64,000 bases of DNA from Asterochloris sp. CNOR1. Taxonomy: Eukaryota; Chlorophyta; Trebouxiophyceae; Trebouxiales; Trebouxiaceae. Position 1 is the stretch's first letter, and the number at the start of each line of letters is the position of its first letter. A program made the position numbers and the translations under genes. The notes under the pieces are model-generated. The model saw only the letters and a program-made list of their open reading frames with translations, made no database searches and had not been told where the DNA came from. This document shows, one piece after another, positions 6,537-64,000 of this stretch. The stretch is from contig OZ017757.1 in NCBI GenBank assembly GCA_963969365.1, forward strand, positions 124,001 through 188,000. Reading direction: 5' to 3'.

Positions 6537-9500
6537 TCAAGATGAGGAAGTTTGCGCAGGTGTTGAGGGCGCAGGCGGGGAAGTGCCTTCACGCTCTCTG
6601 TACAACTGAATCTCCTGTTGCTTAAAGTACCTTCTGTCCTCCTCATCGACAAGCACCAGATTGAGGTAATACTTGACGCTGAACTTGTTGTGCACATTCT
6701 TCAGCGTTGGCGTTAGATCATAGGGTGACAGGAACAGCCTGCAAGCAGTGAACCGGGTTCCTTTTGCACTCATGTGCTGTATATAGCTCTGTCTGTCTCG
6801 CTTGCCCATGCCTCCTTCGTTCTTGTTGAAGGCGTGCATGGTGCACAAAAGCCAGCCCACAACAGGGGATGCCGTGCCCACCCCTTGCATTGGTTCTCCA
6901 TGTTTTCAGATAGGCAAAGTAATGAGGGCCGCATGGCTCAGTGCGAAGAACACTCATCCAGGCCCACCTGATAGGAATATTCTCTCCCCTAACAGGCGCT
7001 CCATCCATGATCTCATACTTTGCGAGGGTCTCGCTCTCATTCCTCGCATTGCTGCCCGAGCCAATGGTCTCCCGCCGCCGTATCTCAATCTCCATGTGCT
7101 TGAGCTTGATGCGCACCAGCAGGAAGTAGATTTTGCCGATGACAGTGTCCTGCACAGGAGGCAGGATGTTCATGTTTTTGTGAACACCATTCAGCCTCAG
7201 GTCAATGCGCACCAGCACAGGGCCATTGTGAAGTCCACCGTTTCCTGCACAGAAGGCAAGACAAGTCCATGCACAACAAGGTCATTCAATGCTTCAGGCC
7301 AATGCACACCAGCAGCAGGCCACTGTGCCGACCAGCATGTCCTGCAAAGGGGAGGGCTCCCCGGTGAGAGCAATCAATAACAGCACAAATCTCTGTTGAT
7401 AGCATGAGTCAGCTTCAACTCTGTTGCAACAGGGTAACATGGACTGCTTACTACGTGAAAGCTCACCCAGACATCACTGGGACTCTGACGGCACACCTTG
7501 CTAGCCCACAGTGATGGAGCACTGCACCGGTTATGAAAGCAACAATGGCTCCACCCAGAGCAAAGGGGTCGTGACAGGGCAATGCATCCCAGCCTGGCAA
7601 CAGATTCAGGCAGCATTCCCTGTGGCACATCCTGCCCTGCCATGACATGCAGAGCAGCAAAAATACGACTGGGTCAGCAGACCCACTCAACGGCAGCTCA
7701 AAGGTCCATCTCACCATCAGGCTGTACTTGGCCTTGCCATACCCGAGTTCAATGGGCAGCTCTCACCTTCAGACTGTACTTGGCCTTGCCGTATTCAAAC
7801 TCAATGTGCAGGCAGTCCTCGATGCCAACCTCCATCTGCAGGGAAGGGGCAAGACATGGCTTAGCTCCGGCATGGATTAGTTGCGGCATGGATCAGCTGA
7901 GCTGGGCGCTGGCACAGCAGGTGTGCTGCTGTGCCCACAATCAAAACACAGGCATCTCTTCATGCCCACTTCATCTGTAGGCATGGCCATGGCATGGCTC
8001 AGCTGTAGCAGGGACAGGCTGGGGCTTGGCACAGCAGAAGTGCTGCTGTGCCCATGCTCAAGTACAGGCACTCATTCTGTCATCTGTAGGCAGGGCCATA
8101 GCATGGATCAGCTGTGGCAGGGACAAGCAGGGGCTTGGAAAGCAGAAGTGCTGCTGTGGCAGAGTGCTACTGATTTATGACTCCATATGGCACCACGCCC
8201 CCTGCCTTTGCATCTGTAGTGCAGAGGCGCATCTGGCCACAGCCCTTCCCATGCTGTGTGCCACACACATGCATCCGGCATGCCTCTACATCCACTATAT
8301 GAGCGGCTGGGGTATATGGGCAGGTGGCCATGCCAAGCACGTCTGTGCTTGCACAGTTGTCAACACAGGGCCATGCAGGCTCTGCATGCGGCCCAAGATG
8401 ATGGTGACTGCCTCTGTGCTTGCAGCATGGGCTGCATGGAGGTTGGGCTGATGCGCATGCAGCCCACTTGCCTGCAGCCCACCATAGTGGTGTTGCTTCA
8501 GCGCTGTCAGAACGGAGGCCAGAGATGAACCTGCCTGCAGCCCATTCTGCCTGCAGCCTATCACAATGGGCGGCTGCAAGCGTCTGTGCGCGTGCAGCTC
8601 TGGCAGCACAAGCGCAGTGTGGACCCAGCAGGCATCCCACCTTGGTGGGCGTCTGGGTCGCAGCCGCAGGTGGCCTCTCGAAAATCTCTGTGCCTGCAGC
8701 GCTTTTGATATAGGGGTTGTTGCAAAACCTCAACCCTTGACCCTGAGCCCTAAGACTTGGGCAGGCATCCTACCTTGATGGGCGGCTGGTTTGCAGGTGC
8801 GGGGGGCGGCGGGTCCTCATAGTTGCGCACCCAGAAGGGGTACTCGCGCACCAGGGATGCGCCGTAGGGGCGCACCAGCGTCACCCGCAGCAGGTACCTG
8901 CACCATCACGGTGCTCTCCAGTACGTACATGCTTCCCTACATCTTTGTGCTGCAGCGCATGCACACCGGGGTCACTGGTGGGTCGCCAGGGCTAGCCTGC
9001 AGCAGGTGCCCTGCACAACCATGGCGCTCTGAGACGGCAGAGCTGCGGCGCATGCAGTGTGGCAGCAGGCGTAGGCAGCGTAGGGGGGGCCATCGTCACC
9101 AGCAGCAGTGGCCTGCAAATGGCAGGAGTGAACTACCAGGCCATGCTACCCTGCTCCCACTCGGGACACAACCTTGTTCTGCAGACCCAAGGGCACTGTC
9201 AGGTGTGGTGAGCAGGTGCGTGACACAAGTTTTGCACTGCATGGCTTCGCCATGCGTTCCGGCAGAGACCAACTCCTGATTCACTTCCTCAGCATTTCAC
9301 CTGAGACGCGCTTGCAGGCCGCAATTTGGTTTGTCGATCAATGGACTGTGTGATCACTGCGTTGCCTGCCTTTGACAACCACTCCACTGCCTGCAGTCAT
9401 GCCTGGCTGTACCGGCAACTTGAGCTGTCTCACCTGGGGCGCATTCGCAGGCAGCGAACACACCCATGGTGCCTGTGTTTCAACCACCGCAGCCCGCAGG

Positions 9501-11392
9501 CACACCCGCCTGATATACTGCAAAAGCAGAAGTCCAGACCCGCAAGCGTGCCGCACCTGAGGCGCACTTGCAGGCTGCAACAGGACTCATGCTACCTGCC
9601 TCTCAACCAGGGGCAAGCCACAACTGGACTGAAGAGCTGCATCTTCACATGATGGAGGTGAAACAGGGAGCTCTCCTGCTGCGAGCCTGTCTCACCTGAG
9701 GCACACTTGAAGGCCACTCAGAATTTTGCTGTCTCCACATGATGGAAGTCAAATAGGGAGCCCTCCTGCTGCAAGCCTGTCTCACCTGAGGCGCACTTGA
9801 AGGCCGCGGTAAGACTCGTACTGCATCTCGACATGGTTGAACTCAAAGAGGTAGCTCTCCTGCCTCGTGAGCTCCCCCGCAGGGGCCAGATTCCGCACTG
9901 TAGGCACGCCCAGAAATGGTCAGCCTAGGGTCTGTAGTAAGCCATCACCTACTGCTTGTTGGCTGGTGGACTCTCCTCAGCAGCACAGGTGGGCACTGAG
10001 GGCCACTGACTGGCAAGCCAGCACCTGCAGCAAGACCCACAGCACACACGAACAGTCCTGGGCAGCACAGTGTGAAACAGCACCAAAGCAGAGGTGCCTT
10101 GGTCTAGAAAGTGTGAGAGAGCTGCCACAGCAGAGGTGCGTTGGGCAGCCAAGTGTGAGGGAGCACTACAGCAGAGGAGGATTGGCCATGAAAATCCCCT
10201 TGGGAGAGCACCACAGCAGAGGTGCAGTGGGTAGCCAAGTGTAAGAGAGCACCGCGGCAGAGGAGCATTGAGCAGCCAAGCGTGAGAGAGCGCCACAGCA
10301 GAGGGGCACTCAGAGAGCCAGTCGTCACCAAGGTCAATCCAGTGCCAGCACCATGTTTACTCGTGGCCGAGAAGGTAAAAGGCTTGCTGGCTTATGCATA
10401 CACAGGATGACTTATATGCCTTGTCCCAGGCGCACCCAAAGGAGGTCGACTTGCTGGGGTTGCTGCGCTCTAACTTGAGCGCAATGTGCCCCAGCCTCTG
10501 CATGTTGATGCCCAGGCATGACACAAAACCCCAGAGACCCCTTTTGCTGGGTGTAGCAAGGTGTGGTCAAGTGGCTAGGGTTGCTGCGACTCAACTTACG
10601 CTCTGGGCGATCCAGCGGCTGCAACTTGGTGGCGTGATGCTCACTTCCCTTCCCAGGTACCACACAGCACCCCAGGCGTACCGAGGGAGGTGAACTCGCT
10701 GGGGTTGCTGCGCTCTGACTTGAGCTCTATCTGCCCCAGCAGCTGCACCTTGATCCCCTGGTGCTCAGTTTTCTTGCCAGGCACCACAGACACCCGCACC
10801 TGCACAGCGACATAAGAACGTGCTTCTGGAGCGCAAGCTTCCATGGCTCGACAGTGCAATGCGCCTTGTAAAGCAGGATTCCTGCGCCACAGACTGCAAA
10901 GCAAAGGCCATTCATTGGCATTGAAAGAGTGGCAGCAGGTCCTGCACCGTCTTCCTGAGGGTGAGACTGCTGACACTGCCGCCGTCGCTTTCACGTGAGG
11001 CCAAAGACACAGGACTGATTTTTGAGCTTGCTGACTCTGCTACCACAGCTTGAACTTGAGGGCACAAGACACAGGGCCGGGTTATGAGCTTGCTGACACT
11101 GCCGACACTGCTTGCACTTGAGGGTAATAGAGACAGGGCGACTTCATTCTCTGGCCGCCTGCAACGGACCCAGCAGCTGCAGGGCAGCTCAAGCTGCCCT
11201 CAACAAGCAAGTGCACTGGCGCACCTCGCCGCCAATGCTGTCCTTGTTGGCAAACAGGGGCAGGGTCTCGGTCTCCCCGCTGCGCGTCTTGACTGTGGCC
11301 GACCTCAGCTGGGTTGTGTCGCAGGGGCGGAACGCCAGCTGGATGGTGGCAGCATTGCCCAGCGCCAGGCCACCCAGCAGCTGCTTCTGCAT
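6537..11392 (-). CDS. VPS26: Retromer subunit VPS26
   Basis: VPS26 is the arrestin-fold subunit of the retromer, the endosomal coat that returns cargo receptors to the Golgi. Seven exons join in phase: 11392-11225, 10799-10682, 9897-9786, 8897-8774, 7835-7767, 7149-6968 and 6738-6537. They give 975 bases, or 324 residues, close to plant VPS26 (about 300). Recognisable blocks in order: 'PLFANKDSIGGE' and 'EHQGIKVQLLGQIEL' (N-terminal arrestin half), 'FEFNHVEMQYESY', 'MEVGIEDCLHIEFEYGKAK', 'GKIYFLLVRIKLKHMEIEIR', 'AKYEIMDGAPVRGENIPIR' and the hallmark 'NLVLVDEEDRRYFKQQEI'. The Ser/Pro/Thr-rich tail is short. The start at 11392 aligns with the plant start. The introns are large and full of local repeats (see repeat entries). 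Confidence 0.93.
7695..8165 (-). repeat. VPS26 intronic repeats copying an exon edge
   Basis: The 3' edge of the VPS26 exon at 7767-7835, with its donor, recurs degenerate at about 7709-7750 (shared 'CTGTACTTGGCCTTGCC'). On the other side, about 7840-8165 holds roughly three units of about 120 bases sharing 'GCAGAAGTGCTGCTGTG' and 'GGATCAGCTG'. Confidence 0.6.
9425..9800 (-). repeat. Echoes of the VPS26 exon 3 splice donor
   Basis: The plus-strand string 'CTCACCTGAGGCGCACTTGA' spanning the exon 3 donor at 9786 occurs in degenerate form at about 9429, 9556 and 9690 inside the following intron. The last of these is accompanied by a longer match to the exon interior ('CATGATGGAAGTCAAATAGG'). 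Confidence 0.65.
10085..10320 (-). repeat. Minisatellite in VPS26 intron 2, unit about 41-45 bp
   Basis: About six imperfect copies of 'CAGCAGAGGTGCATTGGGCA' followed by 'GCCAAGTGTGAGAGAGCAC' run head to tail. The fourth base block varies, and one unit (near 10168) is more divergent. Confidence 0.8.
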
Positions 11393-17813: not shown

Positions 17814-17816
17814 ATA

Positions 17817-24285: not shown

Positions 24286-27200
24286 TCAAAGACTGTGATA
24301 GTCACGCCAGCCCTTGCTTTCCAAATGGGAGGCCTTGTGCAAAACAGTGGACTTCATGTCGTCCTGAAACAGAGGGACAATATTTGTTACGTGAGATGCT
24401 GACTGACATGCGGAAGGCTGGCAAGCAACTTTGGCTACAAGGCCAGGGCCGGCCCTAACAGCATTTCTAGCTCTGAAAAGGTCCAGTGGCAAAACAGAAA
24501 GCTGCACTGGATATGATGGCAGGACAGCAGTCACCTGATAAGTTGCCATTTTGTTGAACAGGAACAGGTCCGAGGTGCCCAGGATTCTGGCAGCCAGCAG
24601 TCCTGCATTGGCAGCATTGCCAATGGCGACTGTCGCAACTGGGACCCCCTTGGGCATCTGCAGCAGCAGTCATTACTGTCAAGCTGTGGCAGCCAGCTTG
24701 ATGGCGCAGCACCAGCAGTATCCTCAAGCCAATATACTCAAGGGACTCATCAGCCCTGTCTTGAACAGAAGATGCCAGGGCATCTTATGCGGCCTGCTGA
24801 GGTGTGCCCCCCTGGAAGAGACAGCGCTACTCCGTGGACAGGCGGTGACCTGTCCCAGCTCATCATCCTCATGTCGAAACACTGACGGGAGTTCTGGCTG
24901 AGACCCCACCTGGACAATGGAGAGCAGAGCATCCAGCCCATCAAGGTGAGCCCCCTTGGGCTTGACTGGCACGCCGATGACGGGCAGCGGCGTGAGTGCA
25001 GCCACCATGCCTGGGAGGTGGGCGGCACCGCCAGCGCCCGCGATCAGAACACGGACGCCACGCGCATGGGCTGTGCGGGCGTACTCCAGCATGCGGTCGG
25101 GCGTCCTGCAGGCGGGCAGGGGAGTGATCCAAGCTGGCAGCAGACAGGTTAGAGAGCAGATTTACACTTAGCAAGGGCCTCTGGCAGGCAGCCAGGTCTC
25201 TCATAAAGACAATCGCATTAGCATGAGCTGTGCGGGCGTACTCCAGCATGTGGTTGGGCATCCTGCAGGAGGGCAGGGGGGTATTGCTATCTGGTGTCAG
25301 ATGAGTAAGAAAGCAGGCTGAGGGCTTGAAAGAAGCTCTGGCAGGCGGCCAGATGTATTGCAAAGACAGTGTGGTGGAAGAGACAAGCGGATGGGCAGTC
25401 AGGACTGGGCCTTGATCTGGTTTGCGAGTGGGCACTGCCTGTTGGCCATGCTGCGTTATGTAGCATGCGACATCTCAGGAAGTGGTCCAGCATCTCTGTT
25501 GCCGGTACATCCCAGCAGCGCTCTAAGCAGGCCACTCACTGGTAGTGGTCCAATTTTTTGACTGCATCCCAGCATTTCTTTGGATCGTTGACTGACCCAA
25601 CACGGTTGCCCCGCCCCCCACAGCAACCCCCCAAAGACAGCATGGCGAGCACTGTCGCACCTCACCTGTGGGCCGACACTATGGTGACCTCGCAGGCGAC
25701 CCCAAACTCCTCCAGCACCGCAGCTGCCCCCGACATGGTGGCCAGGTCTGAGTCGCTGCCCATGATGATGCCAACCAGGGCAGCTGGCGGGGCCTCCGCA
25801 GCTGAGTCAGTGGCTTCCTCGTCCCAGCTGCTGTAGTAGCGCTCGCCCAGCTCGCTGTCTGCAGGGCAGAGGTGGCTTTGAGGCCATGACAGCTGAGCAC
25901 TGCATATGTTCAGCAGCAGTGGCAGCCTCTTTGCTTGTCCCATCTGTAGTAGGGGCGCTCGCCCAGCTCGCTGTCTGCGAGGCAGAGGTGAGCTTGAGAC
26001 TATGAAGCCGAGTGTTGCATGTAGCAGCCTCTTTACTTGCCCTGTTGCTACAGCAAGCGTGGCAGCCTTTTTGCTTGTGCTAGCTGCTTTGAGACTGGCC
26101 CCGCCCGCGGTCTGCAAGGCAGAGCTAGACTCAAACAAGTAGGTCTGTGGGAGTCAGACTTGGTCCACCTGCTTTCAGCACGATAGTTCCGGCCCCTTGC
26201 TGGTCCCAACTGCTCCACAGAGTCAACATCTGTAGCAAATCCAGAGAGGTGCGATGTTGGACTGTACATGAGGCAATGCAATACGCTGAGGCAGCAAAGT
26301 AAGAGCCATTGTGTGGCTTGCTCGCATGGCAGAGGCAGCAGGGTCAACCTCAAGCCAGCTGATCCACTTGTGGCATTCACCCAGCCCATCTCAGAAAGAG
26401 GGTTTTTAGCTGGGCTCTGCCCCAAGGCTGATCAGAGCGTGGGAGATGGGCTCTGTGTTTAGAACAAGTAGCCCCCTAAGTTCACAAGAATTGGACATGC
26501 AGGTCCAGCAGCCTGTGGTTGATTTTGCGACAGCATCTGTCTCAAAAGCTAATGCAGCCTCTGCATAAGTCAGCCCAGCTTAGTTGCAGGAAAGCAGCTG
26601 TGGGGCTGCGGCCAGCACAGCAGTGACCAGCCCCCAGATGGCAAAGCACTTGACACGCACATACAGCCCTGTGCACGCCCACCACCTGTCACACCACCTG
26701 CCATGCAGGTCCAGCCTGTGCAAGCCCACCTCTCAAACCCAAATGTGCACAGCATTTTGATTGAAATATGTGTGGCCGCCCACAGTATCCTGCGTACTAC
26801 GCAAAGTGCAAAGAGCGTCACCTCGACAAGGCAACTTGGCGCACCTGGCATGGAGATGAGGCCTCTCCAGCATCTATGCATGGTTTGCGATGGGCGTCAC
26901 ATGACCTTGGAACATTTCTGCGCACCTGGCATGTAGATGAGGCCTGTCGCAGCAGCATCTGTGGTAGTGGCTTCCAGCGCTGCTGCAGCCGCTGCGTCGA
27001 TGCAGCGCAGCCGCTGCCGAGCCTGGAAGTTGTCGGGAGCCACGATCGTGATGTGACCCACCTTGCGCTTCTCAGAGACCTCATGCTTGCCGTACCAGTG
27101 CACATTGGCTCCAGGAGTCTGCACGGGCAGCACCAGGCTTATCCAGAGGTCATCAGGTTCTTGTGTGCAAGTGGGGGAGTTGCACCAGATCTGAGCAGCT

Positions 27201-38506: not shown

Positions 38507-39457
38507 TCATGCTGATGATGTTACTGTGACAACTTTTATGTAATGCCTTCTGAGATTGTTGACAACTTCATCAACTCTCTGCTGCCACTGCCTGCCAGCT
38601 GGCACTTTCCAGCTTGCAACTCGAACAGACTGCACAGTGATCTTGTCAGGGGTCAAGCCCTCACTTGCCTGGTGGTCCCACAATATGGCTGCCTTTGGGC
38701 ACTGTACAGCCAGGGAGTTGCAAGCACACACAGCCCTGCCTGATGGGAACGGGGAGCCACTGTTCAATGTTATGCGATGATTTGGTGATGCTTGCCATCT
38801 GTGCACCAGGCCCAGCTTGCACTCGTCTTGCACAACCCAGTGCACCTGCTTGGCTGAGGCCATAGTGACTTGGTCTGGGTGCCAGCCACACTTATCATTG
38901 GCCTTCCAGTCCCACTCAGCCAGCAGATGCGGGGCTCCAACGCTGATGCTGGGCTGCCTTGTCTGGACGCGGCGGGCCTCACGGGCACACTGGGGGCATC
39001 CATTCCCTCGTGTTCGCTGGTTGACACTGGCACTCCATCTGTGCCCACAGAGGCCACACCTCCAGGCTGCTTTAGTATTGCTGCTTGCTGTCACAGTCCC
39101 TGGTGAACTTTCAAGATTGGCCTCCCAGTCCCACTCCGCTGCCACCTCTGGGTGGTTGTGGGCCAAGTCGTTGCAAGGGCAAACTGCTCTGCCCTTCTCG
39201 TAGGGGCACCTGTTGCCCTGAGTGCGATTTTGGATTCTTGCATGCCACCTGTGCGGCTGGCCTGTCTTGCACATGCCGCTCCTCCACCAGACCTTCCTGT
39301 GGCTCTGAGGAGTGATGGTGATGCTGCCCAGGTGGGCGTTGGCGTCATGGTCCCACTCCTGCTGCAGGTGCGGAGCCAACTGGCCAATATTGGGGCCAGC
39401 TTGCTCATCATGTTTGCCTGCAAACACAGCAGGTGTTGTGGTGCTGTGCTCTGGCAA
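38507..39457 (-). CDS. Zinc-ribbon repeat protein, copy A6, intact
   Basis: The frame codes for 316 residues with four repeats; repeat 2 is canonical ('WRCGLCGHRWSASV', 'GNGCPQCAREARR'). The N-terminus ('MPEHSTTTPAVFAGKHDEQ') crosses the conserved GTTTGCAG acceptor, so part of it may be intron. The C-terminus is longer than in the other copies ('HYIKVVTVTSSA'). Confidence 0.75.
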   Translation of the reverse strand: MPEHSTTTPAVFAGKHDEQAGPNIGQLAPHLQQEWDHDANAHLGSITITPQSHRKVWWRSGMCKTGQPHRWHARIQNRTQGNRCPYEKGRAVCPCNDLAHNHPEVAAEWDWEANLESSPGTVTASSNTKAAWRCGLCGHRWSASVNQRTRGNGCPQCAREARRVQTRQPSISVGAPHLLAEWDWKANDKCGWHPDQVTMASAKQVHWVVQDECKLGLVHRWQASPNHRITLNSGSPFPSGRAVCACNSLAVQCPKAAILWDHQASEGLTPDKITVQSVRVASWKVPAGRQWQQRVDEVVNNLRRHYIKVVTVTSSA

Positions 39458-47802: not shown

Positions 47803-48679
47803 GAAACATCAGCAGATTGGCTCCGCACCTGCAGCAGCAGTGGGACCATGCAGCCAATGCCCACCTGGGCAGGATCATCATCACTCCTCAGAGTGGGAGG
47901 AAGGGCTGGTGGAGCAGCGGCATCTGTAAGACTGGGCAGCCGCACAGGTGGCAGGCAACCGTAAAAAATCGCTCCGATGGCAGGAACTGCCCGTACGATG
48001 CTGACAAAGCAGCCTGCCCCTGCTATGATCTGGCCCACAACCACTCAGAAGTAGCAGCCGAGTGGGACTGGGAGGCCAATGGGGAAAGGACACCAGAGAC
48101 TGTGACGGCAAGCAGCCACTTGAAAGCAACCTGGAGGTGTGGCCTCTGTGGGCACAGTTGGAGCGCCAGTGTGTTGACTGAAACACATGGAAGAGGATGC
48201 CCCCAGTGTGCCCATGAGGCCCGCCGCAAGAAGACAAGGCAGCCCAGCATCAGCAATGGAGCACCACACTTGCTGGCTGAGTGGGACTGGGAAAGCATTG
48301 AGACACATGGCTGGCACCCAGACAAGGTCACTCTGCGCTCGCCAAAGGAGGTGCACTGGGTCGTGAGAGACGAGTGCAAGCTGGGCCTGGTGCACAGTGG
48401 CGGACATCACCCGATGACCGCACTAAATATAACACTGGCTCCCCATTTCCCTCTGGCAAGGCGGTGTGTGCTTGCAACTCCCTGGCTGTGCAGTGCCCAG
48501 AGGCAGCAGACTTGTGGGTTTACGGGGTGAATGGAGAATTGACTCGCAGTGGTGTAGCAGTACAGTCGCACATAGTCGTGGCCTGGAAGGGGCCAGATGG
48601 TAGGCAGTGGCAGCAGATTGTGCAACAAATTGTCAAGAACATGAGAAGACGCTCGATTTTCAAACAGGTTGGGGTATGA
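47803..48679 (+). pseudogene. Zinc-ribbon repeat gene copy A8, frameshifted
   Basis: Repeats 1 and 2 and the start of repeat 3 are in one frame (to 'DECKLGLVHS'), and the rest ('SPFPSGKAVCACNSLAVQC' to the end) is in another frame ending at 48679. At about 48396 'CACAGATGGCAG' of the other copies has become 'CACAGTGGCGG', which accounts for the shift. The usual 'GKSEEQ' beginning is also lost. Repeat 2 keeps its cysteines ('WRCGLCGHSWSA', 'GRGCPQC'). Confidence 0.75.
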
Positions 48680-49593: not shown

Positions 49594-52500
49594 TCATGCC
49601 ATGTTGCTGCGGGTCACATGGTCAGGGCCAAGAGCGCCAGTGGGGGCCTTCAAAGTTGGGCTGGAGTCAGCGCTGGAGGAGTCGTCAGAGGTGCGGCCGC
49701 CCTTGCCCAGGGTGGACATCTCAGCTGTGGCCTGCCTCTTGTTAGGAACCACCCCGCCAGGGTAGGCAATGCGGCGCCAGGCCCAGTGAGCCCTCTGCCA
49801 GTCGGCGCACTACAGGCATGAAGGGGGTTGCCATCAGTGAAAGTGAAGCTTGAAATGCAAGCAGGGCTGCCAGGGGATTTGAGCATTCAAGGCAGCGCAG
49901 GCATGAAACATGGTGGGCTGCGGGAGTGCCTTGCATAGCACAAAATGGCAATACGGCTTGACTCACTGTGATATGGGGTGCGGTTCAGTAAGCTGACACA
50001 GGCTCTTATTGCTGACCAACCGCACAACATGCAACAGGGCTATTTGCGGTGCAGCACTGTGTAATACAGTGCAGTGCACATATACACAGACCTGTACAAT
50101 TTTGCCCTGCTGGGCAGCATCACGGGCCATGCAGCACAAGCAAGCCATAGATGCTATGCGCTGTCGTATGCCTTGAACAGAGCAACCAGGCATCCACACA
50201 TCAGAGCGGGCAGCACAATTCCCGAGGCTGTTGGGGCACCAGCGCTGGACAACGCACCTCCTCGATGGGCACTCCACGAGTCTCCCTTACAAAGACCCAT
50301 GAGAAGATGAGCGCAATGAACTGGAAGACACCGAAGAAGATGAACTGCAGCCACAGGTACACAAAGGTCAGGACAAAATACGCGCTTGTAGAGACAATGA
50401 GCAATGCAGGGCCCTGGCAGGGCAGACTCAGTAGAGTTTGTAGCCATCATTGCTGTGTGGAGCAGCAGGGTTGCTGGCAGACTAGGTCCTCCCTGGCAGC
50501 AGCCAGCCTGACAGATTTGAAGTGCTGGCTCTGCTTCCAGGTGAGCACAGGTGCAGAGCAGGGCTGCTGGCAGACCAGAGTCTCCATGGCACCAGCTAGC
50601 AGACAGGGTCCTGCAATTGGTGCTCCAAGACAGCTCCAGCCAGGCAGAGCGCAGTGCATGCCACAGGAAGCAGCACTACCATGGCACCCTGGTTGCCATC
50701 AGGGTGATGACTTTAGCCCTGGAGCAGCAGTGCTGCACGGAAGCCTAGATGGCAGCCGACACCAGGGGCTAAGCATTGCCCAACAAGCATGCAGCATGCC
50801 TGTGTGGACTCCAGTAGCTGGTCACATACCGTGTTTGTAGCGCTGACAGGGACTAGGACTGGACGGCCACAAGCACTCACCACGCCGTACTGCATGCTGC
50901 ACATCATGGGCAGGAAGGAGATGGTGACCACGGCGCCCGACATGAGCTGCGTGAACACGGTGATGGACTGGCCAGCTGAGCGGGTGTTTAGGTCATGGAT
51001 TTCTGAGGGGATGAGCCAGCCAATGGGACCCCACCCCCACCCAAAGGAAGTCGAGTAGAGACCAATCTGCAGGGGAAAGGGAGGGGCTCAGCATTGTAAC
51101 AAAGCCTGTGCTTGGCGAAAGCATGCAGTGCATCCAGTCCAGCAACAGGTGCTGTCCACTGTGTCAGATACACAGATACTGCACAATCTGCTGCTCAGCT
51201 GAGCACTGCAAGCTGTGCTCAAGGTGGCTGGTCTGATCAAGCAAGGACATGCAATGCTCACCAGCACCACGGAGGCGATGGAGGCGCCGTATGGGAGGTT
51301 GACCTGCCCTGGGACGTAGGTCTGGGAGAACAAGATGGCCACAGCAAAGTCGGCCATGGTGCCCACTGTTGAAGCTGTCAGCAGCAGCACGCGGCGCCCC
51401 ACCTGCATTGGTCAAGGTACTCAGTGTGTGAGCAATGAGTTCCTGATGTGGCAGCAGGGTCGAGCATGAGCCTGCAGAAGCACAGCTGCCTGGCTGGCTG
51501 CTCCATTGGGTTGCACTGTAGCAATGTTGCCCAGAGTGGACAAGCTCACCCATTTTTGCCAAAGTCGCAGCTGGTGTGCTGCAGCAGAGCAACGTGCAGC
51601 CTCAATGCGCATCAGACTTGCCAAGAGTCAAGCTGGTGTGATGCAGCAGGGGCACTGGCTGCCCACAGTGCACCTTGAGCTTCTCCATCATACAGTTCAC
51701 TCAGCTGCAAAGCAGCGTTGGATCGCCTGCTCACCTTGTCGACAATGCCCACTGTGATGATGGTGGCAATCCACTGCACGCCGTTGACCAGCAGAGCAGC
51801 ATAAAGCTGGCCAGAGGTGCCAGCAGACGCGAAGGCAGTCACGCCGCTGAAAATCTGGGGGGCGAAGAAGCTGATAGCGTTCACTCTGCAGCAGGCAGGG
51901 TATGCAGGTGAAAGGCAGGCCTTGCAGAGTAGCAGGTGCACAGCCACCATGACAGGCATCAGGCAGAGCAGCTGGTGCAGCCTTCAGAGTCTTGCTTTCT
52001 GATCATGCTTTTGAGAAGTGCCACAGGGCATGTCAGGGCTGTGTGGGCATGTCAGGCAGGCAGCGCGGCTCCAGACAACTGTGCGGCACCCTGCAACTGT
52101 GACTTACCCACTCCACTGCTGGAAGAAGGGCATGGCGATGGCCAGTATGAGCTGGGGACGGTTATGGCGCCTGCATGGAAGAAGGGGACAGGTCAGCGTG
52201 GCGCACAGACACACGCTTGTAGCACTCAATCATCAGCAGCGGTGCCGCCTTAGTCGATGTGAGCATACAAGCTAAGGCTTGCCCTCAGTAGGGGTCAGCA
52301 TACGGGTTAAGCCACCCCCTCAGTGGTTGTGAGCCTACAGGCTGAGGCACCATGTCCAGAGCAACCTGGGCACGGGCAGCCCCTGTGACTGACAAAGGAC
52401 CCAGTCACCCAGTCAAGTCAGCAAGCCCGCTGAAGCTGTGAACGCGCGCGACCCCTGTGAGTCAACAAGGACCCACAAAAGGCCGCCCCTTTATAGGGTG

Positions 52501-55500
52501 CCCAATGGGCTGGCCCCGTAGGGCCACGTCATGGGCTCATGCACCACTGTGGCATGCAGACACTACAGCCAACTCCCACCTTCAAGCTGACCTTGCCTGA
52601 CAGCATGTTGCAAGGGGCTGCTGCCTTCCTCACCCAGCACAACATGTTCAGTCAGCGGCCCCACCCATATATGTCAGACCACCAAGCTGCTCTCACTTGA
52701 AGATGGCCCTCCAGGGGTTGGCTGCTGTCTTTGTGACCTCGTTTGCCAGCACGATGGTCTCAAACTCGACATCCACATCCTGGGTGCCGCGAATGCGCCT
52801 GAGCACCTGCCGCCCCTTGTCAAAGTGGCCGCGCTCCACCAGACTGTTGGGGGTCTCGGGCAGGAAGAGGCCGCCTGCAAAGGGCAGCCTGACAACTCTG
52901 AAGAAGTCATCAGATTTGGGAAATGTTGAGCTTGGGAATCACTCAGGTCCCCAGCTGTGTGCCTGCAGTGGAGATTGGCAGCCAAGGCTTCCCCAGGTAG
53001 GCTGTTGAGGCAGAAGCAGGCTGCCTGCAGCAAGAGGCGTTGCCCCAGCTTGCTCATGTCTGTTGCCATGCTGAGAGAGCTGTATGTGAGCCTGGCCCCT
53101 GTAGCATGAGCTCCTGCAGTGCTCTGCACGTCTCCTGCCCTGCACCATCCTGGGCATGACCAGACTGCATTGGTCACTATAGGCTGCTGCAATGCAGACA
53201 ACAATGAATGTTGGCAATACGCAAGCCTCTGGCCCACAGCCCTGCGCACCTAGCAGGAGGATGGTTCCAGGGATAGCTGCCAGGCCAAGAGAGATCCTCC
53301 AGCCCCAGTAGAGGTTGATTGTGCCAATGTTGATGGCGCTGGCCACAACGATGCCTGTGATGGTGCCGCACTGCACCAGCGCATTCAGGGGGCCTCTCCA
53401 CCTGGGAGGGGCCACCTCTGCTGTGTAGATGAAGGCGCCTGCAGTGCAGGCAGTGGCACAGCCTCAGAGAACACCTCTGCTGTGTAGATGAAGGCGCCTG
53501 CCGGTGTCCTGACTCTGTTCACCAGCAGAAAGCAGCTGTGCAGTGGGGCACATGGTGCAGCTGGTTGTCAGGGCTGAACGGCAGCTCAATGCATCATGCA
53601 GCAGAAAGCAGCAGCTCACATGAACTGCCACTGGCCCTCAACGTGCTCAAGCTATGCCACACCATATCACAAGACCGTTGTGCATGTTGCTTGCAGCAGG
53701 TGGTGCAAAGCATGCCATTCCCCTTGGGTGCAGGACTCATCGACTCACAGTGGTCGCCAAAGCCCACGCCAATGCCCCAGAAGATGCGGCCTAGGAAGAT
53801 CATGGACAGAGTGTTGGAGTGAGAGCCAGCCTGGAGCCCAGCGCCGATGAAGTAAGCCTGCAAAACAAGCTGGCAGATAAGCCTGCAATCAATCTGCTTT
53901 GTGGGCCAAGAGCGACACTCAAGACACCCTCAGCCAGTAGCCTTCAGCTGTGCTGCCATAAGACACTCACCACGCCAGCGATGATCATGGACCTGCAGTA
54001 AACTGAATGTCTGTTACTACAGGCAGGCTGCAACACAGAAACAGGTGCAATCTGCTTCTCAGTCTGTACACTAAAGCAAAGCCCACAGAGGCAAGGGCAG
54101 TCAGCAGCCTGAGCCGCGCTGCTGCCGCACTTGCTTGAGCTGTGAGAGCATTTCATCATCTGTGCAGCATGGCAGCAGCCCACAAAGGCAAGGGCAAACA
54201 GCAGCCTGACCTGCTGAGCTGCCACGCTGCTCTTGTCTAAGAGATTGCAGCAGTAGCTTGAGGCTGCACAAGACCTCCTTCTAACCCACTATGCAAAACA
54301 AGCTTGTGCCCCACCTGGTACGTCCCCAGTGCTGTGTAAACCAAGAGGCTGGCAAGGAAGCCAGGGCACCAGTGAAGTGCATGATGGCTGCAGCAGGGCA
54401 AGTTGTAGGGTTTAGGAAAGGAGCTACTACTCAGCAGCTGTCACAGCACGTGATGGGCACAGCAGGTGCAGTGCAACACAAGGTCAGCTGCAAGCATGAG
54501 AGTTCGCTCACAAGTGCAAAGGCAAAGTGCAATGGCAGACTCTGGCATCGACCACAGCTCTGAATGTGCCCACTGCACTGCTGCATTCAGCAGCAGCCCT
54601 GGCGACGGATGCCGCTCAGAAACGTCTCACCTGAGTAAGTTGAAAGCACGCGTGAGTTGTAGCGGCAGTAAAAGTTGCCCCCATGCTGCCCTTGTACGTC
54701 AGGGAAGTAGAACTTCAAAAACTGAGGGAAGGACTCAACACCCCCGGTGATGCCTCTGCACAGCAGGGGCTCAGTGTGTATCCTCTGCGGCTGTGGCTGC
54801 TGCACACGCTTCTGCTGCATGGGTCAGCGCATCAATGAGATGACAGACGTTGCATGGTCAGACAGTTCAAGCTTACCCGTCGTAGCCAAAGAGGAGGCCG
54901 CCAGATGCAGCCACTACGCAGGCCAGAATCACAAAGATGGTGCACTTGGCATCAACATCCTGCAGGGCAGGTGGATAGGCAAGATCAGAGACGAAGCCTG
55001 CTGCAGGAAGCTGAGCTGATCCCATTGCTGCCACAGGCGCCCTGCAACACAATGCGCAGCTAGTGCAATTGTCTGGTTAAAGACAGGCTTGTGCTCTGTG
55101 CAGCTATTGTCAAGGAGGCCCATTGGCGGCTTGCAGTAGTTGACATCAAAGCATTGGCTCCAGGAGAGCTGCAAATTGGTAAGAGGGCGAGGTGATGTGG
55201 ACCAGAATGCAGCAGCCGCCGCAGCTGTACAGCCATGTATCCTGCTGCCTTCGAGCTGAGCTGAGCACTCTGCTGCTGTTAGCAGCCCTTGCTGCTGTGA
55301 GCACCCCTTGCTGCTGCTGGCACAGTCATGCATGATGTGACATGTCTCACGGCGTCCCTTTTTGGGTAGTCCCTCCAAAAAGGGGCAGGCCCCCCCTTCG
55401 GGTCTGACAGCAATGCATGGCCACCACTTGGGCAGCCTGGAGGCTATGATGATGGCGAAGCAGCGCTTTGCCAGCCAGCTTCCAAACAGTGGTCAAAGAC

Positions 55501-55741
55501 ATCAGGCATTTTGCAAGCTGCACCTGGGTTGTCAGCCAAGCAGCCCATCCCTTCCATATTGGACCACTAAGTGGACACAGTAATAGACAGGCTTGGAATG
55601 CTTGCCAGGTGAAAAGGCGACCAGAGTTACACCACTCACCACAACACCAGCTGCAATGCGCTCCAGTTCAGCCTGTGACCGCTGGCCCTTTGCTGCAGGT
55701 GTTGTAGCTACTGGACCATCAGCACTCTTGCCCACAGCCAT
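49594..55741 (-). CDS. Hexose/proton symporter of the STP/HUP type (MFS)
   Basis: This plasma-membrane sugar uptake carrier should have 12 transmembrane segments. Fourteen exons join in phase: 55741-55640, 54959-54877, 54755-54631, 54387-54315, 53992-53971 (22 bases), 53857-53749, 53438-53250, 52874-52697, 52170-52108, 51885-51735, 51402-51262, 51066-50881, 50344-50258 and 49809-49594. They total 1725 bases, or 574 residues. Family marks in order are 'GGLLFGYDGGITGGVESF', 'GRTRSM' after TM2, 'FLPETPNSLVERG', 'FFQQWSGVNAISFFAP', 'VDKVGRR', 'GWGPIGWLIPSEI' and 'ETRGVPIEE', then a Ser-rich tail. The N-terminus is longer than in HUP1. Substrate (glucose or another monosaccharide) cannot be told from sequence alone. 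Confidence 0.93.
53412..53502 (-). repeat. Echo of transporter exon 7 5' edge
   Basis: The 29 bases at 53415-53443 that span the exon 7 acceptor recur at 53471-53499 exactly, 56 bases upstream in transcript sense, starting with 'ACCTCTGCTGTGTAGATGAA'. Confidence 0.85.
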
Positions 55742-57008: not shown

Positions 57009-60000
57009 ATGGATCTGGCAGGCGCAGACGCCCAAGAGGAGGATGATCAAACGCTGCAGCACAGCGCCTTTGAGGTGCTGCGCGACATGCCCAATCCCGC
57101 TTCTGACAGGGTGCAGAAGGCGCAGGCCGCCAGGGGCGTCGACCCCCAGCAGCTGGTGCTGCAAGGTGTGCGGGCAGAGCTGTGCTCCTGGTCATGCTGT
57201 AGCATCCTGTGCGCTACTGTTACTGGATGCTATTGCTGCTGCAGAGCACCTGCTGGCCGCCTTCTCCCTATCAGAGAAAGGGGAGGACAGGGAATATCAG
57301 CAGCAACGCTTGGATGCTTGCCAAGCCTGCTGGGATAGCCTGGCCAGTCACATGGAGGTCAGCAATGCCTTTGCAGGCCGCAGCAGCCAGACTGTGGTGC
57401 CACTGCCCCTGGCTATGCCGAAGGCACCAAACATTTTGCAAAGCAGTCCACAAAAGTGTACACACAACCAACGCAGTGTAGGCTGGGGAGCCTGAGGTGT
57501 TGCTTTGCAGGCAGCGTTGGCGGCCACTGACCATTGACCTTGCACCAGCAGATGCTGCATCTGCCTTCAGCATCTGGGCTGGACCCCATGTACCACATGC
57601 GCCCCTGCAGGCAGTGCTGGCGGCCACTGATCAGCAGACCTTTGCGACGCTGATGGAGTTTGTAGCAACCCAGCACCAGCGCAGCCTGGACGCAGAGGCT
57701 GGGGCCAGGGGGCGCCATCGGCTGCCCACAGCCCTCACCTTTGCGGGGGGCGTCAATTCGGCTGACCATGCCAAGACGTTCCCTACTCTGGCGCAGCTGC
57801 TGCGAGACCAGGTAGGCCGTGCTGATGGCTGCTTGCCTCTGCCAGCGAGCAAGAAGAGTCTGATTGCACCGCCCAGGTAAAAGCCAGGGAACGTCAGGGG
57901 CACTTTTCACTTTGCAGTCTGCTTAGCCTGCTGAGAGCCATAACGTCCTGCTGTGCCTCCCAGCCTTAGAAGGCTGACCTGCTGAGAGCCCATAGCCTTG
58001 ACATGACGTTGTTCCTCACAGCCTTCAGGGTGGTTCAGTGCTGACAGCGCAGTTGGCTGGACTGCGCTGTGCCCCTCTGATTTAAGAGCGCTTGAATGCG
58101 AATGGGCCACTGCTGGAATCTGGGCTGTTTCTCCCAGCCTTGGGAATGCTGATTTGCACAGGGGCCATTGCCATGACACTGTAGTGCTTCTCACAGCCCT
58201 TGGGGATCTGGATTGCAGAGAGGCCATGATTGGACACTGTGCAATCCTCCCAGCCCTGGAAGTTGTGGACTGTGAAGAGGCCTTGACTGGACACTGTGCT
58301 GTTTCTGGAGCCATTGGAGTGCTGGAATCCTGACACTCCATGGCTGGACGTTGTGTTGTTCCTGCTAAGGAGGATACTGTATTGTAGAGGGCATGTGTAT
58401 AGAGCAAAACAGGATCTTGAAGCTGGCCAAGCTTCCCCCAAAATCACCCTACATGCTTGCGGGAATCAGTACATCCAAAGCTTCACGCACGCTGTGTGCA
58501 GGGCTGCCATGTGGCACTGTTGCAGTCAGGCTGCCTTGGTGCTGGGACTGGGGTGGCCCTAGCACTGAACGCCATCATGCGCCAGTTCAGTGGGCGGGAG
58601 ACAGACGCAGATGATTTGCTGGTGGGCATGGACTAATTTTTTGTATGGCACATCTGGTCGTGTCCAGGCTTCAAGCCACTTGCGTGTCGGCTCAGACTGA
58701 GGCTTTCTTCTTGCACATGCCTGCATGCAAATCATGCTGGACTGCTGCCTGAGGGTGAAAGTTGTGATTGTGGCACCTGTGGCGGCCCATATGCTCGGGG
58801 TGGCTGTCACCTGATGCACCGGCAGCCACTCAGTTGCCGGCAGCGCTATAGGCTGCAGATGCTGCAACCCTGGTACAAAATGCGCTGGCTGGCACTCAGT
58901 CTCTGCCAGTCTTTGTGTGCTGCAGGCGCTGCAAGCCTGGTACCGGGATGCCTTGGCTGGCACAGCGCCCATGCACCCATCCACAGCAGCGGCGGCAGGG
59001 CTGGACCTGATGAGCTCCCCGCTGGGCAGGCTGCAGCTGCAGTCGCCAGACTGGCACACGCAAAGCGGCCCCGCCACAGGCGCGGCGGCCACAGGCATTA
59101 CACAGGGGGCCAGGCAGCAGCCCGCTGATAGTGACCCTCAGGGCAGAGAGCTGGAGTCGTCGCACAGGAGCACACAGGAGGCTCCTGCCACAAGCACTGC
59201 GGCTGGAAGCAGGACGCGGGGAACCAGGCAGCAGCCTGCTGACAGTGATTCGCAGAGCAGAGAAGGCCAGGCTGACGCTGAGTCTGCTGCCGCAGCAGAT
59301 GGTGTCCTGTCACCCCTGGAGCGCCTTAGGCTGCAGACGCCAGCCACCGCCAGGGTCAGGCCTCCTACCCGTGCCCTGACAATTGGCGAGGTGTGCTGCC
59401 TGCACACCCTCACCTGCATGGCTCACATGCCTGATGCTCGAAGTGCATGGCAGGTCTGACAACGGCTTGCCTGAAAGTGTGCTCTCTGTGTCAGTCATAT
59501 ATGCCATCAATGGGACAGCCGGCACCTGCCACACTGAAGTAGAGCCACATCTAGCAACTCCTATGTGGCAGCATGACAGGACCACAGAAAAGCAATTTCT
59601 GCTGTAGCCGACTTCTTGGGCTCTGTCTGCAGGCAGCTGCAGCTGTGAGGCCCAGAAATCGGCCCCTGGTCGTCATGTTGGAGGGGGCTGAGGGGACAGG
59701 TGCATCGGCCCTGAAAGATCTGATCATCCTGCTGGCAGAGGTGTGCCCCTGCTTGCTTCAACATAACATGGTCCCATTGAGGGCTTTGCAAGTCCTGCAT
59801 AGCTGCAGCTTCCGGAGAGCGCAACACTGGGCACTTCTGGGGCTCTGTATGCTTTTGCAGCCCGCTGTCGCATGTTTGCAAGCTGCAAACATCCAGGCTG
59901 CCGGTGCAGGTGCACAGCCAGCTGCCTGTTGTGCTGGTGATGGGCATGTCTACCTCGGCCGCGGCGCTACAGCAGTTGTTACCCCTGGCTGTGGTGGACC

Positions 60001-63000
60001 TGCTGGAGGCGCAGCATTTTCACCTGGTGCGATCACTGCCTAGGTGAGGCAGTGGGCTGAAGCATGCCAAACTGCAAGCTTCTCATTGCTGGATTTTGCT
60101 GGCAAGTGGAGATGCTGCATCGCCCTATGATGCGCTTGTGGCCAGGGGGGGCTACTGCGCTAGAGCAGGCCAAAATGCAAGGAATGCGGTGCAGTGGCTC
60201 CAGCTATTGTTTCATGGCCAGCTGTAGATGCAGCACTTCCAGAGGGTGCGCTCGCTCTCCAGGGGAGTCACAGGGCTGGAGCAGGCCAAGCTGCAGGGAC
60301 TCGTTGCAATGACACCAGACAACCTTGGCTTGATAGCTACAGATGCAGCGCTTCCGCCTGGCGTGCCTGCTGCCCGGGGGGGACAGTGGGCTTGAGCAAG
60401 CCAAGCGTCAGGGTCTGCAGTGCAGTGGCACCAGGCAGTCATGGGTTCATGGCTGGAGATGCAATTCCACCTGCTGTGCTTGATGCCCACGTAGGACACT
60501 GGGCTCCAGCAGGCAGAGCTGCAGGGTGCGCCTTGCTGCGATTTTGGGTGGCAGGCATGCTCAGGTGGGCTGCTGGGGTTGAGCAGGGTGCTCAGCTTTG
60601 GATTTCACAGGGCGCGCTACATGTGTCACACGCTTGCACTGTGCTGTGTCTGCTCGATGACTGAAGACACCTCTGGCTCATGCGCTTGCTGGCAAGATGG
60701 GCACACAGGTAGCAGGAGGTCTGGCTGTGGGTGTAGAAGTCTTGGGCAGTGTGCTTGACAATGTGCTTGACTCACAGCAAGTGTGCGTGGCGCAGCTCTG
60801 CTAAGTCTAGCCTGGCACAAGCAAGATATGCCGGTCAGTTGTTCCTGCCGGATCAACAGCGAACTTGCACTGTCCACTGTTGGATAGAAGCATGCAGCAA
60901 AGCCATCTGGGCACCTGCTGTCGAGGTCAGTAGCACAGGCTGGATGGCCCTGTCTGCATCCAGGAAGGGGAGAACCTGCCTGAGGACTCCAAGACGGGCT
61001 GAAGGCGCATTGCTCTCACCTGGTGCATTCCCAGCATATGCGCTCTGCGCAAGCAGATTAGACCCAGCTGGCCACCTGCAGGATGACACGGAATGGTCAT
61101 TGGGCAGTCTCTGTTCAAGAGCCAACGCCCGCTGAGGGCGCGTCACTATGCTTGCAGCTAAGGGGGCCCACACGGCGGCTGGCGGCATCGTCTGCACTCA
61201 GCCTGACTGCTGAGGAGTACGCCCAGCAGCTGTACCTGCACGAGCCCCTGACAGGCCAACTGGCTTATTCTGACTGCCCTTCTGAGCATCGCTGCATTCG
61301 TGCAGGCTGCGCCCTTCCAGACTTCCAGTTTTGAGTGCTGCCTCAAGCAGTTTCTTGGTTAGAGTTAGCTGTGAAGCTTATCTCAGAGATGCCTTAGGCC
61401 CCAATGCTCCGCCATGCAGGCTGCAGGCACTCATGCGAGATGTCTTGATGGGGCCCAAATTTCATGGCATCTTCTTTGGCCACCAGGTCATCAAATTCAT
61501 CAATACTCACTTCATGGAACACGACTTCACCACAGCTGTCTTCCGTAAGGGCCTGCAGGTGGGACTCATGATGCCACTCACACCAGGCCTGCACTGCTGA
61601 GCTGGTGCACGAAACGTGCTGCTGTGCACTCCTGGGGACCTTGTATGACTGGCCATTATCAGCATGCGGCTGGCTGGCACTCAACTCCAGAGGCTCAAGC
61701 GCGTTCCAAGCTGAACGCTGCGATTTGTGTGTGCAACCAGCCGCTTGGCCCACGCTCCTGAAGCAGAAGTTGTGTCTATAGTATACCTGACTTAAGAACA
61801 ACCTTAACCTGTCCTGTGCCGGCAGCAAGTGGAGTGCATGGTGCAGCTTCAAGCATCGCTCTCCTTCCTGCCAGGGACGGCATTCAGGTCGGTGCAAATG
61901 GGACTGCAAATGGGACAGCAGACAAGAACAAGAAGGAAAGAACAGCCCGCAGCCTGTGCTGCCACCTCAGTGCAGGCAGCATACGTGACTGCCTGCTGCA
62001 GGTGGCCTGCATCGCCCATTTCCAGAGCGCCCCACTGTCCTTTCTGGCGGCAGAGTGCATACAGGCCGATGCTCAGCCTGCAGACATGAGCAGCCCATCC
62101 CTGCAGCTCACAGCAGGAGCAGGAAAGCAGCGCAGGGCCAGGAAGAGGAGGGCAGAGGAGGATGAGGAATCAAGTGCAGAGGGGGAGAGGTGGCAGTCAC
62201 GCCTGCAAACGACATGCTTGCGGCTCTCTCCTGAACTGACGGCAGTGGCCCAGGGGTTGCTTGGCTGCCCAAAGAAGGTATGTCTGCACTTAGGCCCGAG
62301 GCAAATGATCACGTGCCTGCTGATGGGATGACTCTGTCTGCGGACCGCTTGGCAGCTCAAGGGAGATTGGGGCCACTGTCAATGTTGGGCGCAAACAGTG
62401 GTCGTGGGTATGTAGTCCAAGGGTGACAAGTGATGAACTGGTGCTGGCAACAGGGGACAAGATGGCATTGCTGAGCATTTGCATTGCTGCTGGCCATGGG
62501 GGCCATGCTACCATTTTGTTTTGGCGCAGCCAACCATTCTGATTGAGCTGGTGCAGCGGAGACAGTGCAGTGTGCAGTGCTGCTGGCTGCAGATGGAGTA
62601 GGCCATCTGCCAACAACAGTCCATGATGTGCCATACCAGTGATGCTGCCGGCAGCGTAACCTGTTAACGTATGTGAAGTCATGCTGCTCTGCAGGCCAAG
62701 GCTGCTGATGTCAGGAAAGGCCTGTGTGCAGCAGTGGAAGAGACCTGTGCCTCTTACAGCAGATGGTCAATCGCATTGTTGTGGCTGAATGCTGCAGCAA
62801 GCGCCACTGGACTGCTGGTGCCAGGTAAGCCCCAGTTCATGGCAGGCCCCAGCATGGCAGGACCCAGACAGCCATTGGCCATGACTCCTGCTTGTGTGAC
62901 ATGTTGCGTCATGCATCTTCTGCGCAGCAACCACTCGCTTGACGCATCATGGGCTTCAGCCAAGCCCAAGCAGTCTCACACTGGAGGCATCTGCATGTGC

Positions 63001-64000
63001 ACGCAGGCACACCCTTTGCATGTCTTGCAGCTCCTGAGACTGGATGTCGTGGTCTGCATGGCAGGGCTCAGAGGCAGGCATGAGTCTCCAAACCATTTAC
63101 AAGCCCCTGCTGAGATAGCGCGTTGTTAAGTGTAGGGCAGGGGTCCCCTTACACGCTGCATGAGCTGTACGAGTGGGCCTCAGGTGCAGATGCCCTCACT
63201 GGGGACCGGCGTGAGACACTGCAGCATCTGGAGGGTGCCGTCAAGCGGCTGAGTGCAGAAGCTTGCGTGAAGCTCTTGGAGGTGAACAGGCAGCGGACCT
63301 GGTGCTACGTACATGCAGGCGCCTTGCACAAGCTGCTGTCTGCCTGGTGACAATGTGCTGTTGCGTGTCTGTGACACATGCGCTGTGCGAGGGCTGTTGA
63401 TGTCAGCTTCAGCCTGCAGGCGTTTGCTGGGATGGCAGACAAAGTGTGGCAAGGCAGGCAGGTGGCGGCAGTGGAGTTGCAGGCTGTTGAGGTCAGCTTT
63501 TGGCCTATGGTATGCTCCAGTCACACACCTCATGTAGTGCCCTCTTGAGAATACCACGCTTGTTGGGAAGAGTCCTGATACTTCATGAGCTTAGGTAATG
63601 CATGAAGCTTTTTATGCTTGGGGAGCAGATCACCCAGTCAACTTAGGTCTTGCTGGAGTAGCCTTCCATCTTTCTGCCATGTGTTGGAAGGCAGTTGCAT
63701 CATGAGATGGACTCCTGGTTGTCACCCTATGCTTCAAAGGCGTGGTGCAGGCCCTCGTTGCCAAGATTCGACGAGAGAGTCCCATAAAGGCCACAAAGCT
63801 TAAGTCTCCAGCAGGCAACAACGGTCCCAGACAGCAGCTTGTTGCTGGTGGGCCCTCTTTGTTGATAAGCACACCATGCACAATGCTGCTTTTTCCTCCC
63901 AAGACTGCTGTCATGACAGCGCAAAGGCAGCAGCCTGGGCAGGTATGCAGGTATGCCTCCCTAGGCGCGCCCTTGCCGCGGGTGCCTGACTTGATGGGGA
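57009..64000 (+). CDS. ORC3: Origin recognition complex subunit 3, 3' end outside the window
   Basis: ORC3 is part of the nuclear complex that marks replication origins. Exons in phase: 57009-57165, 57245-57357, 57611-57811, 58502-58621, 58926-59390, 59633-59740, 59910-60043, 61420-61558, 62002-62277 and 62695-62824. An unresolved short exon near 63.04 kb must follow. After it come 63141-63281, 63420-63491 and 63751-63942, which ends at a GTATGC donor near the window edge. Family blocks are 'LPTALTFAGGVNSADHAKTF', 'RPLVVMLEGAEGTGASALKD', 'LPVVLVMGMSTSAAALQQLL', 'FINTHFMEHDFTTAVFRKGL' and 'CIAHFQSAPLSFL'. The C-terminal exons ('SRWSIALLWLNAAASATG', 'AVKRLSAEACVKLLE') fit ORC3 less obviously but join in phase. 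The 155-codon exon 5 carries a low-complexity insert with an internal repeat. The start ATG is inferred. Confidence 0.85.
57500..57640 (+). repeat. Echo of ORC3 exon 3 5' edge
   Basis: 'GCAGGCAGTGCTGGCGGCCA' at the acceptor (about 57607) is echoed as 'GCAGGCAGCGTTGGCGGCCA' at about 57507, each followed by 'CTGA'. Confidence 0.8.
57955..58335 (+). repeat. Tandem repeats in ORC3 intron 3, unit about 58-60 bp
   Basis: About six imperfect units share 'TCCCAGCCCTTGG', 'GAGGCCATGACTGGACACTG' and 'TGCTGTT' like blocks. Confidence 0.7.
59985..60530 (+). repeat. Echo array of the ORC3 exon 7 3' end, about five units of 110-120 bp
   Basis: The exon end and donor at 59995-60065 are followed by four degenerate copies at about 60110, 60228, 60340 and 60456. 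Each has a 'GAGATGCAGCA' like start, a GC-rich middle and 'CTGGAGCAGGCC'. The copy at 60228 still encodes 'QHFQRVRSLSRG', against 'QHFHLVRSLPR' in the exon. Confidence 0.8.
61815..61875 (+). repeat. Echo of the ORC3 exon 9 5' edge
   Basis: About 55 bases ('QVECMVQLQASLSFLPG' in one frame) parallel the real exon start at 62000 ('QVACIAHFQSAPLSFLA'), about 175 bases upstream in the intron. Confidence 0.55.

Follow-up and report, generated by a model that had tools for sequence, protein, structure and literature searches.

Introns of the green alga Asterochloris sp. CNOR1 echo the edges of their exons, probably through ordinary local tandem duplication

Can introns lengthen by copying the ends of their own exons, splice site included, and does such copying call for a process devoted to exon borders? 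The question is raised by a 64,000-nucleotide stretch of the genome of the green alga Asterochloris sp. CNOR1 (bases 124001-188000 of the 2.76-Mb contig OZ017757.1, assembly GCA_963969365.1; hereafter, the window), in which a first-pass annotation described degenerate tandem copies, or echoes, of exon ends with their donor or acceptor in the introns of four unrelated genes, VPS26, PurK-PurE, a hexose transporter and ORC3, and perhaps of a fifth. We confirm that the echoes are real and exceed chance. They are one slice of a wider local tandem duplication that affects 88 of 315 introns analysed, and the likely explanation is that introns of this alga grow via ordinary small local tandem duplications, some of them straddling exon borders, with no special border-copying element.

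The genome comprises 56.4 Mb in 21 contigs; because TTTAGGG arrays are present at both ends of contig 1, the long contigs look chromosome-sized. Gene content and the TTTAGGG telomeres suit a green alga. In five window genes with Pfam support (VPS26, the PurK and PurE parts of PurK-PurE, the sugar transporter, ORC3 and UBE2), 47 conserved peptide segments were placed by hand, and exact exon borders were taken from the overlapping exons of a gene finder. This hidden-Markov gene finder was trained, starting from the hand-placed segments, on the window together with 23 stretches of ten kb (294 kb in total), where it yielded 50 genes with 516 introns and recovered 5709 of the 6072 hand-placed coding bases, the same bases having served as its first training set. 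It also yields small false exons, which a score filter was intended to take out: exons scoring below 5 or shorter than 45 bp, and exon gaps below 60 or above 2500 bp, were left out of the confident set, which comprises 315 gaps flanked by confident exons and drawn from 47 predicted genes. In the edge test, the last or first 60 bases of an exon were aligned locally with its own intron, a score of at least 32 counting as a match.

With the hand-anchored exons of the five genes, 14 of 84 edges had a match in the intron that they border, the figure for edge-intron pairs drawn across genes being 1 of 2780. Matches were present in all four genes for which echoes had been claimed (VPS26, 4/12; PurK-PurE, 7/22; sugar transporter, 1/20; ORC3, 2/18), while UBE2, the fifth gene examined singly, had none (0/12) and does not supply the suggested fifth case. 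The 294-kb sample gave the same picture, with own-intron copies of 42 of 630 edges (donors 22/315, acceptors 20/315) as against 6 of 12,572 shuffled exon-intron pairs (3/6286 donors and 3/6286 acceptors), and the outcome named in the annotation as refuting its claim, parity with random pairs, did not arise. Direct local repeats scoring at least 36 were found in 89 of 315 exon-intron-exon segments and, in three runs of dinucleotide shuffling of the same segments, in 2, 1 and 1 of 315. Direct repeats were searched throughout and inverted ones in one later comparison over the 315 segments, in which, with exon-only repeats excluded, 88 segments carried direct repeats and 2 carried inverted repeats; the idea of a recurrent local tandem process is thereby upheld. 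Chance or low-complexity similarity, faulty gene models or assembly errors might be suspected in a genome rich in TGCAG and CAGC words, where CTGCAG occurs in introns at 1.33 times expectation and not all small predicted exons can be genuine. Nevertheless, the shuffled, cross-gene and inverted controls reject chance for the bulk of the echoes, although single weak cases may be chance, and the identity of most copies, approximately 75-81%, reflects a divergence too great for misassembly, so that artefact of any of these kinds is a highly improbable account of the echoes.

The echoes and related duplications of the window, with the genes that carry them, are as follows (fractions after the coordinates are matching over aligned positions):

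6540..11386, minus strand: VPS26-like gene, 7 conserved exon segments and 6 introns (Pfam Vps26, E 6e-72 in the C-terminal part, 5.6e-8 in one N-terminal exon)
7709..7811, minus strand: VPS26, 52-bp tandem duplication over the donor that follows exon MEVGIEDC..KAKYSLK (exon copy 7761-7811, echo 7709-7759, 42/51)
9636..9805, minus strand: VPS26, 90-bp tandem duplication over the donor CAG/GTGAGA of exon ELTRQ..RLR (copy 9728-9805, echo 9636-9715, 71/78)
9542-9607 and 9425-9456, minus strand: VPS26, additional echoes of exon ELTRQ..RLR
10425..10795, minus strand: VPS26, exon end echoed in about three 123-bp units (exon end 10671-10761 echoed at 10425-10516, 75/91; 10736-10795 at 10612-10672, 47/60)
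24289..33031, minus strand: PurK and PurE parts in one predicted gene, 12 conserved exon segments (Pfam AIRC, E 4.9e-39; preATP-grasp, E 3.1e-19)
25064..25368, minus strand: PurK-PurE, 157-bp tandem duplication over the acceptor CTGCAG/GAC (exon copy 25064-25211, echo 25221-25368, 112/147)
25815..26028, minus strand: PurK-PurE, acceptor-crossing duplication (exon copy 25815-25917, echo 25931-26028, 82/97)
28399..28768, minus strand: PurK-PurE, donor-crossing duplications (28632-28754 and 28507-28623, 91/117; 28698-28768 and 28399-28470, 59/69)
29535..30081, minus strand: PurK intron, 273-bp tandem duplication, nearly all intronic (202/260)
32051..32562, minus strand: PurK region, exon-end and acceptor-side copies (32447-32545 and 32324-32422, 74/97; 32064-32139 and 32250-32325, 56/76)
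49597..55741, minus strand: sugar (hexose) transporter gene (Pfam Sugar_tr, E 5.9e-55, joined central exons)
53413..53501, minus strand: sugar transporter, echo of an acceptor and exon start (53413-53442 and 53472-53501, 30/30 identical, offset 59)
57009..62277, plus strand: ORC3-like gene (Pfam ORC3_N, E 4e-15)
57506..57642, plus strand: ORC3, acceptor-crossing pair (57506-57541 and 57606-57642, 31/36)
58852..58963, plus strand: ORC3, acceptor-crossing pair (58852-58895 and 58919-58963, offset 67, 36/44)
60141..60526, plus strand: ORC3, intron-only duplications clear of any exon (115/149 and 83/109)

Five matches to VPS26 exons were found in the genome, every one within this gene. The 273-bp duplication of PurK enters the exon by 4 bp in one alignment and by 9 bp in another. 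Within 32051-32562, a pair of adjacent exons predicted in the PurK region resemble each other (70/98), which may represent a whole-exon duplication or one falsely predicted exon.

What form do the copies take? In the 49 aligned edge matches, copies lie at offsets of 59-468 bp, each below the length of its intron; 38 matches cross the splice site, 6 stop at or before it and 5 are best aligned wholly within the intron. For 22 of the 49, the aligned span covers 0.8 or more of the offset, as for adjacent head-to-tail copies, and it covers 0.6 or more in 43 of 93 repeat units defined by alignment (101 units at score 44, minus 8 exon-only). The copies are thus on the same strand and head to tail, as in local tandem duplication, with adjacency evident for about half. 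Crossing matches extend from a point 9-144 bp within the exon to one 2-338 bp within the intron, with 23 of 38 continuing at least 30 bp into the intron, 20 of 38 at least 46 bp and 13 of 38 less than 20 bp. Short homology at breakpoints was sought in young copies, which are represented by only 7 pairs in 294 kb, in 5 of which the aligned run is longer than the period by 4-14 bp. Arrays reported by Tandem Repeats Finder (TRF) have a median copy number of 2.3 overall, and in a first pass 32 of 195 crossed an edge against a null fraction of 0.088 (standard deviation 0.018), approximately twofold; as short noise arrays were mixed in, the 93 alignment-based units are preferred. Strong TRF arrays account for 1.75% of the bases between genes and 3.6% of those in introns. 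Small insertions that arise as tandem duplications, like minisatellites, are head-to-tail copies made through slippage or repair in non-coding DNA; the echoes differ in usually having about two copies and often longer units, and are ordinary in kind. Repeat units number 2.23 per kb of intron in the window versus 0.70 in 18 loci at 1 Mb and 0.86 in 5 loci at 300 kb; the window lies less than 190 kb from a contig end, and its repeat richness may be a subtelomeric effect or a chance of the site chosen.

These features are consistent with small local tandem duplications, with offsets mostly of about 50-500 bp, that would arise anywhere in non-coding DNA, presumably through slippage or error-prone break repair. 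Introns being often short relative to the unit length, geometry alone would place a large share of units astride a border. A straddling duplication would do no harm if the outermost splice sites stay in use: the old exon would remain intact, and the extra exon end with its splice site would be turned into intron and decay. Duplications that are wholly exonic, or spliced from the inner site, would mostly be purged for altering the protein or the frame, and coding selection on the exon copy would keep crossing pairs recognizable for longer than intron-only pairs, so that borders may seem favoured.

Are borders favoured in fact? The annotation regarded the duplication as anchored at exon borders. 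Anchoring would mean that a process with a preference for exon-intron junctions places copies of the exon edge in the intron, for instance through breaks at R-loops or stalled forks, or through microhomology in CAG/GTGAG and TGCAG/G. At score 32, intron interiors are copied within the intron at a rate similar to that of edges (56 of 1152 60-bp windows, searched on both sides, versus 42/630), and the same duplications are thus present away from any border. A finer profile was drawn in 40-bp windows, with donors and acceptors pooled, the copy sought further into the intron and bootstrapping by gene. Copies were found for 46 of 586 windows at the exon edge (-40 to 0), 56 of 570 across the border and 174 of 3900 in the interior, that is, at 1.76 (confidence interval, CI, 1.25-2.44) and 2.20 (CI 1.51-3.21) times the interior rate, which speaks for anchoring. 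However, the first two intron windows inside the border, with 29/558 and 18/542, stand at 1.16 (CI 0.64-1.91) and 0.74 (CI 0.38-1.28), both intervals including 1, and the intron flank thus shows no enrichment in the 315-intron set at this window size. Given that more than half of the crossing matches reach at least 46 bp into the intron, a border-targeting process should raise the rate on both sides, whereas the exon side alone is raised; a pair decays more slowly where its exon is conserved, leaving more old pairs visible, which would account for enrichment on the exon side only.

Simulations in which duplications are unanchored bear on the same point. At steady state they give edge ratios of 1.1-1.3 at exon rates of 0.1-0.4, and with few recent duplications 1.5-2.4, with an intron flank of approximately 1, so that with older events they also produce edge ratios similar to those observed. 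Their end points also spread as in the real data, with 0.56-0.63 of crossing matches continuing at least 30 bp into the intron (real, 23/38) and 0.22-0.35 less than 20 bp (real, 13/38). Exon parts of pairs are more alike than intron parts (0.81 versus 0.76 in 19 units, the exon being better in 11), whereas simulated steady-state identity is approximately 0.90 for exon and 0.86 for intron at exon rates of 0.1-0.3; since the observed values are lower, the observed pairs would be older, in line with few recent events. According to these models, the excess on the exon side may reflect visibility, and we find no support for the claim of anchoring in the flat intron flank or the end points.

Several observations nevertheless weigh against unanchored duplication as the whole explanation. 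Outside the window, the edge ratios rise to 2.17 (CI 1.42-3.35) and 2.86 (CI 1.78-4.62), exceeding the steady-state simulation. Uniform placement predicts 34.5 +/- 3.9 border-crossing units of 93, and 48 were observed; for the 43 clearly tandem units the figures are 13.6 +/- 2.6 and 20. The few-recent-events setting was picked post hoc, with the data already seen, and is too high in the deep exon, giving 0.82-1.58 for the window [-80,-40) where the observed ratio is 0.50 (CI 0.25-0.79), the real peak being narrower. In a strict intron subset the excess falls to 1.48 (CI 0.87-2.50) and 1.84 (CI 1.04-3.11). Adjacency of copies is not clear in 27 of the 49 edge matches, which have a spacer or a decayed part between them; the 3.7% of exon bases covered by strong TRF arrays, a figure that includes border-crossing and coding repeats, fits a purely non-coding process badly; and the gene models are computational predictions. 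A modest or weak true preference for borders is possible. With the narrow peak and the surplus of crossing units on one side and the flat flank, the end points and the interior duplications on the other, we consider a border-anchored process rather unlikely and continue to favour ordinary, unanchored duplication.

Once made, what becomes of the copied exon ends? Mismatches between exon and echo fall at codon positions 1, 2 and 3 in 142/823, 161/823 and 200/821 cases, and the exon looks constrained, with the echo drifting. The dinucleotide AG is kept in 18 of 19 echo acceptors and GT in 15 of 24 echo donors (28/30 and 21/29 in a wider set). In echo acceptors the preceding C is kept in 19/19, like the AG well above neighbouring bases, in what is a small sample. 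Selection against decoys would be expected to remove these sites, and no such loss is seen, GT bases matching at 38/48 versus 459/603 for nearby exon bases and AG bases at 37/38 versus 350/452; acceptors are, if anything, retained. Part of this retention is accounted for by the generic stability of GCAG words, which are kept in 50 of 117 cases in intron-only pairs, compared with 0.32 for all 4-mers. The first-quartile score of real sites is equalled or exceeded by 16 of the 29 echo donors and by 19 of the 30 echo acceptors, which agrees with the proposal that echoes supply decoy splice sites and makes these plausible extra sites. The retained dinucleotides and GCAG words, together with these scores, could be taken to mean that echoes are kept for function, as alternative exon ends, decoy splice sites or regulatory pseudo-exons. 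Yet the offsets modulo 3 (18, 16 and 9 of 43) would shift the frame in 25 of 43 cases, codon positions 1 and 2 are mismatched nearly as often as position 3, such that the echo is apparently not read as protein, acceptor retention concerns few sites, several sharing introns, in alignments chosen by score, and introns abound in strong sites anyway (approximately 3 GT and 2.4 AG per kb). Maintenance for function is therefore very unlikely. A bolder reading, in which borders are duplicated or retained approximately 1.5-2 times above the unanchored neutral level and the retained acceptors make exon edges hot spots that seed working spare splice sites, is rather unlikely, though it would fit the near-complete conservation of AG.

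How do the echoes relate to known routes of intron evolution? Tandem genomic duplication is a recognized route to new introns in the excerpts of PMC3443670 and PMC4974935 considered here, the latter describing a tandem copy of an intron-exon structure, acceptor included, in potato RdRp (Ma et al., 2016; PMC4974935) and mentioning an 83-bp tandem duplication within an intron that left the structure unaltered. The echoes resemble this process in that gene segments are duplicated locally and in tandem, but, unlike the intron gain portrayed in those excerpts, the copy is absorbed by an existing intron, which it lengthens, borders included. In intron gain the offset equals the intron length, whereas here it is smaller; the geometry of gain was found weakly, in 12 of 516 introns and in none at both ends, compared with 24 of 516 for that of the echoes, and gain by tandem duplication was rejected as their source. 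Work on internal gene duplications, segments carrying entire introns among them, and on created introns (Gao and Lynch, 2009, as cited in the excerpted text of PMC4974935 and PMC3443670) likewise deals with duplication within genes; as cited, it differs from the present case, in which the extra copies decay as intron. Introners are described in the excerpted PMC9860276 as dispersed copies of one element and, like the echoes, add intron sequence repeatedly in many genes, yet the echoes find their matches within their own gene and hardly ever in another. The cross-gene counts, obtained with edge-intron pairs only, speak against introners as the source of the echoes and support the distinction from such dispersed elements drawn in the first-pass annotation. 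Its further statement that no named element behaves in this way may be true, but no element is required. Among the literature matches listed from one open library, no title or abstract opening names border echoes of this type, which speaks only weakly for novelty. The difference from the known cases lies in the outcome: existing introns lengthen, with the copied borders included.

Other features of the window complete the picture of the locus. Seven long open reading frames (ORFs), one family by eye, form a multi-copy cluster on both strands, and all three of the seven that were scanned match Pfam DUF4379, a probable treble clef zinc finger (E at most 1.4e-37):

1119-2075, 3436-4188, 5108-6238 and 47817-48530, plus strand: cluster ORFs
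34345-35238, 38507-39457 and 43415-44422, minus strand: cluster ORFs

An intron of UBE2 contains a run of 25 C at 22791-22815; an inverted repeat lies at 17330-17460 in a predicted gene on the plus strand that has a P-loop-like motif, as recognized by eye; and an 82-amino-acid stretch at 15655-15900 had no match in a Pfam scan.

The analysis carries a warning, namely that enrichment at borders can arise because exons preserve the recognizability of their half of a pair. About a quarter of the sampled introns in this compact algal genome visibly record growth via local tandem duplication, and the copying of exon edges along with their splice sites offers introns a simple means of lengthening and of gaining spare splice sites that needs no mobile elements.

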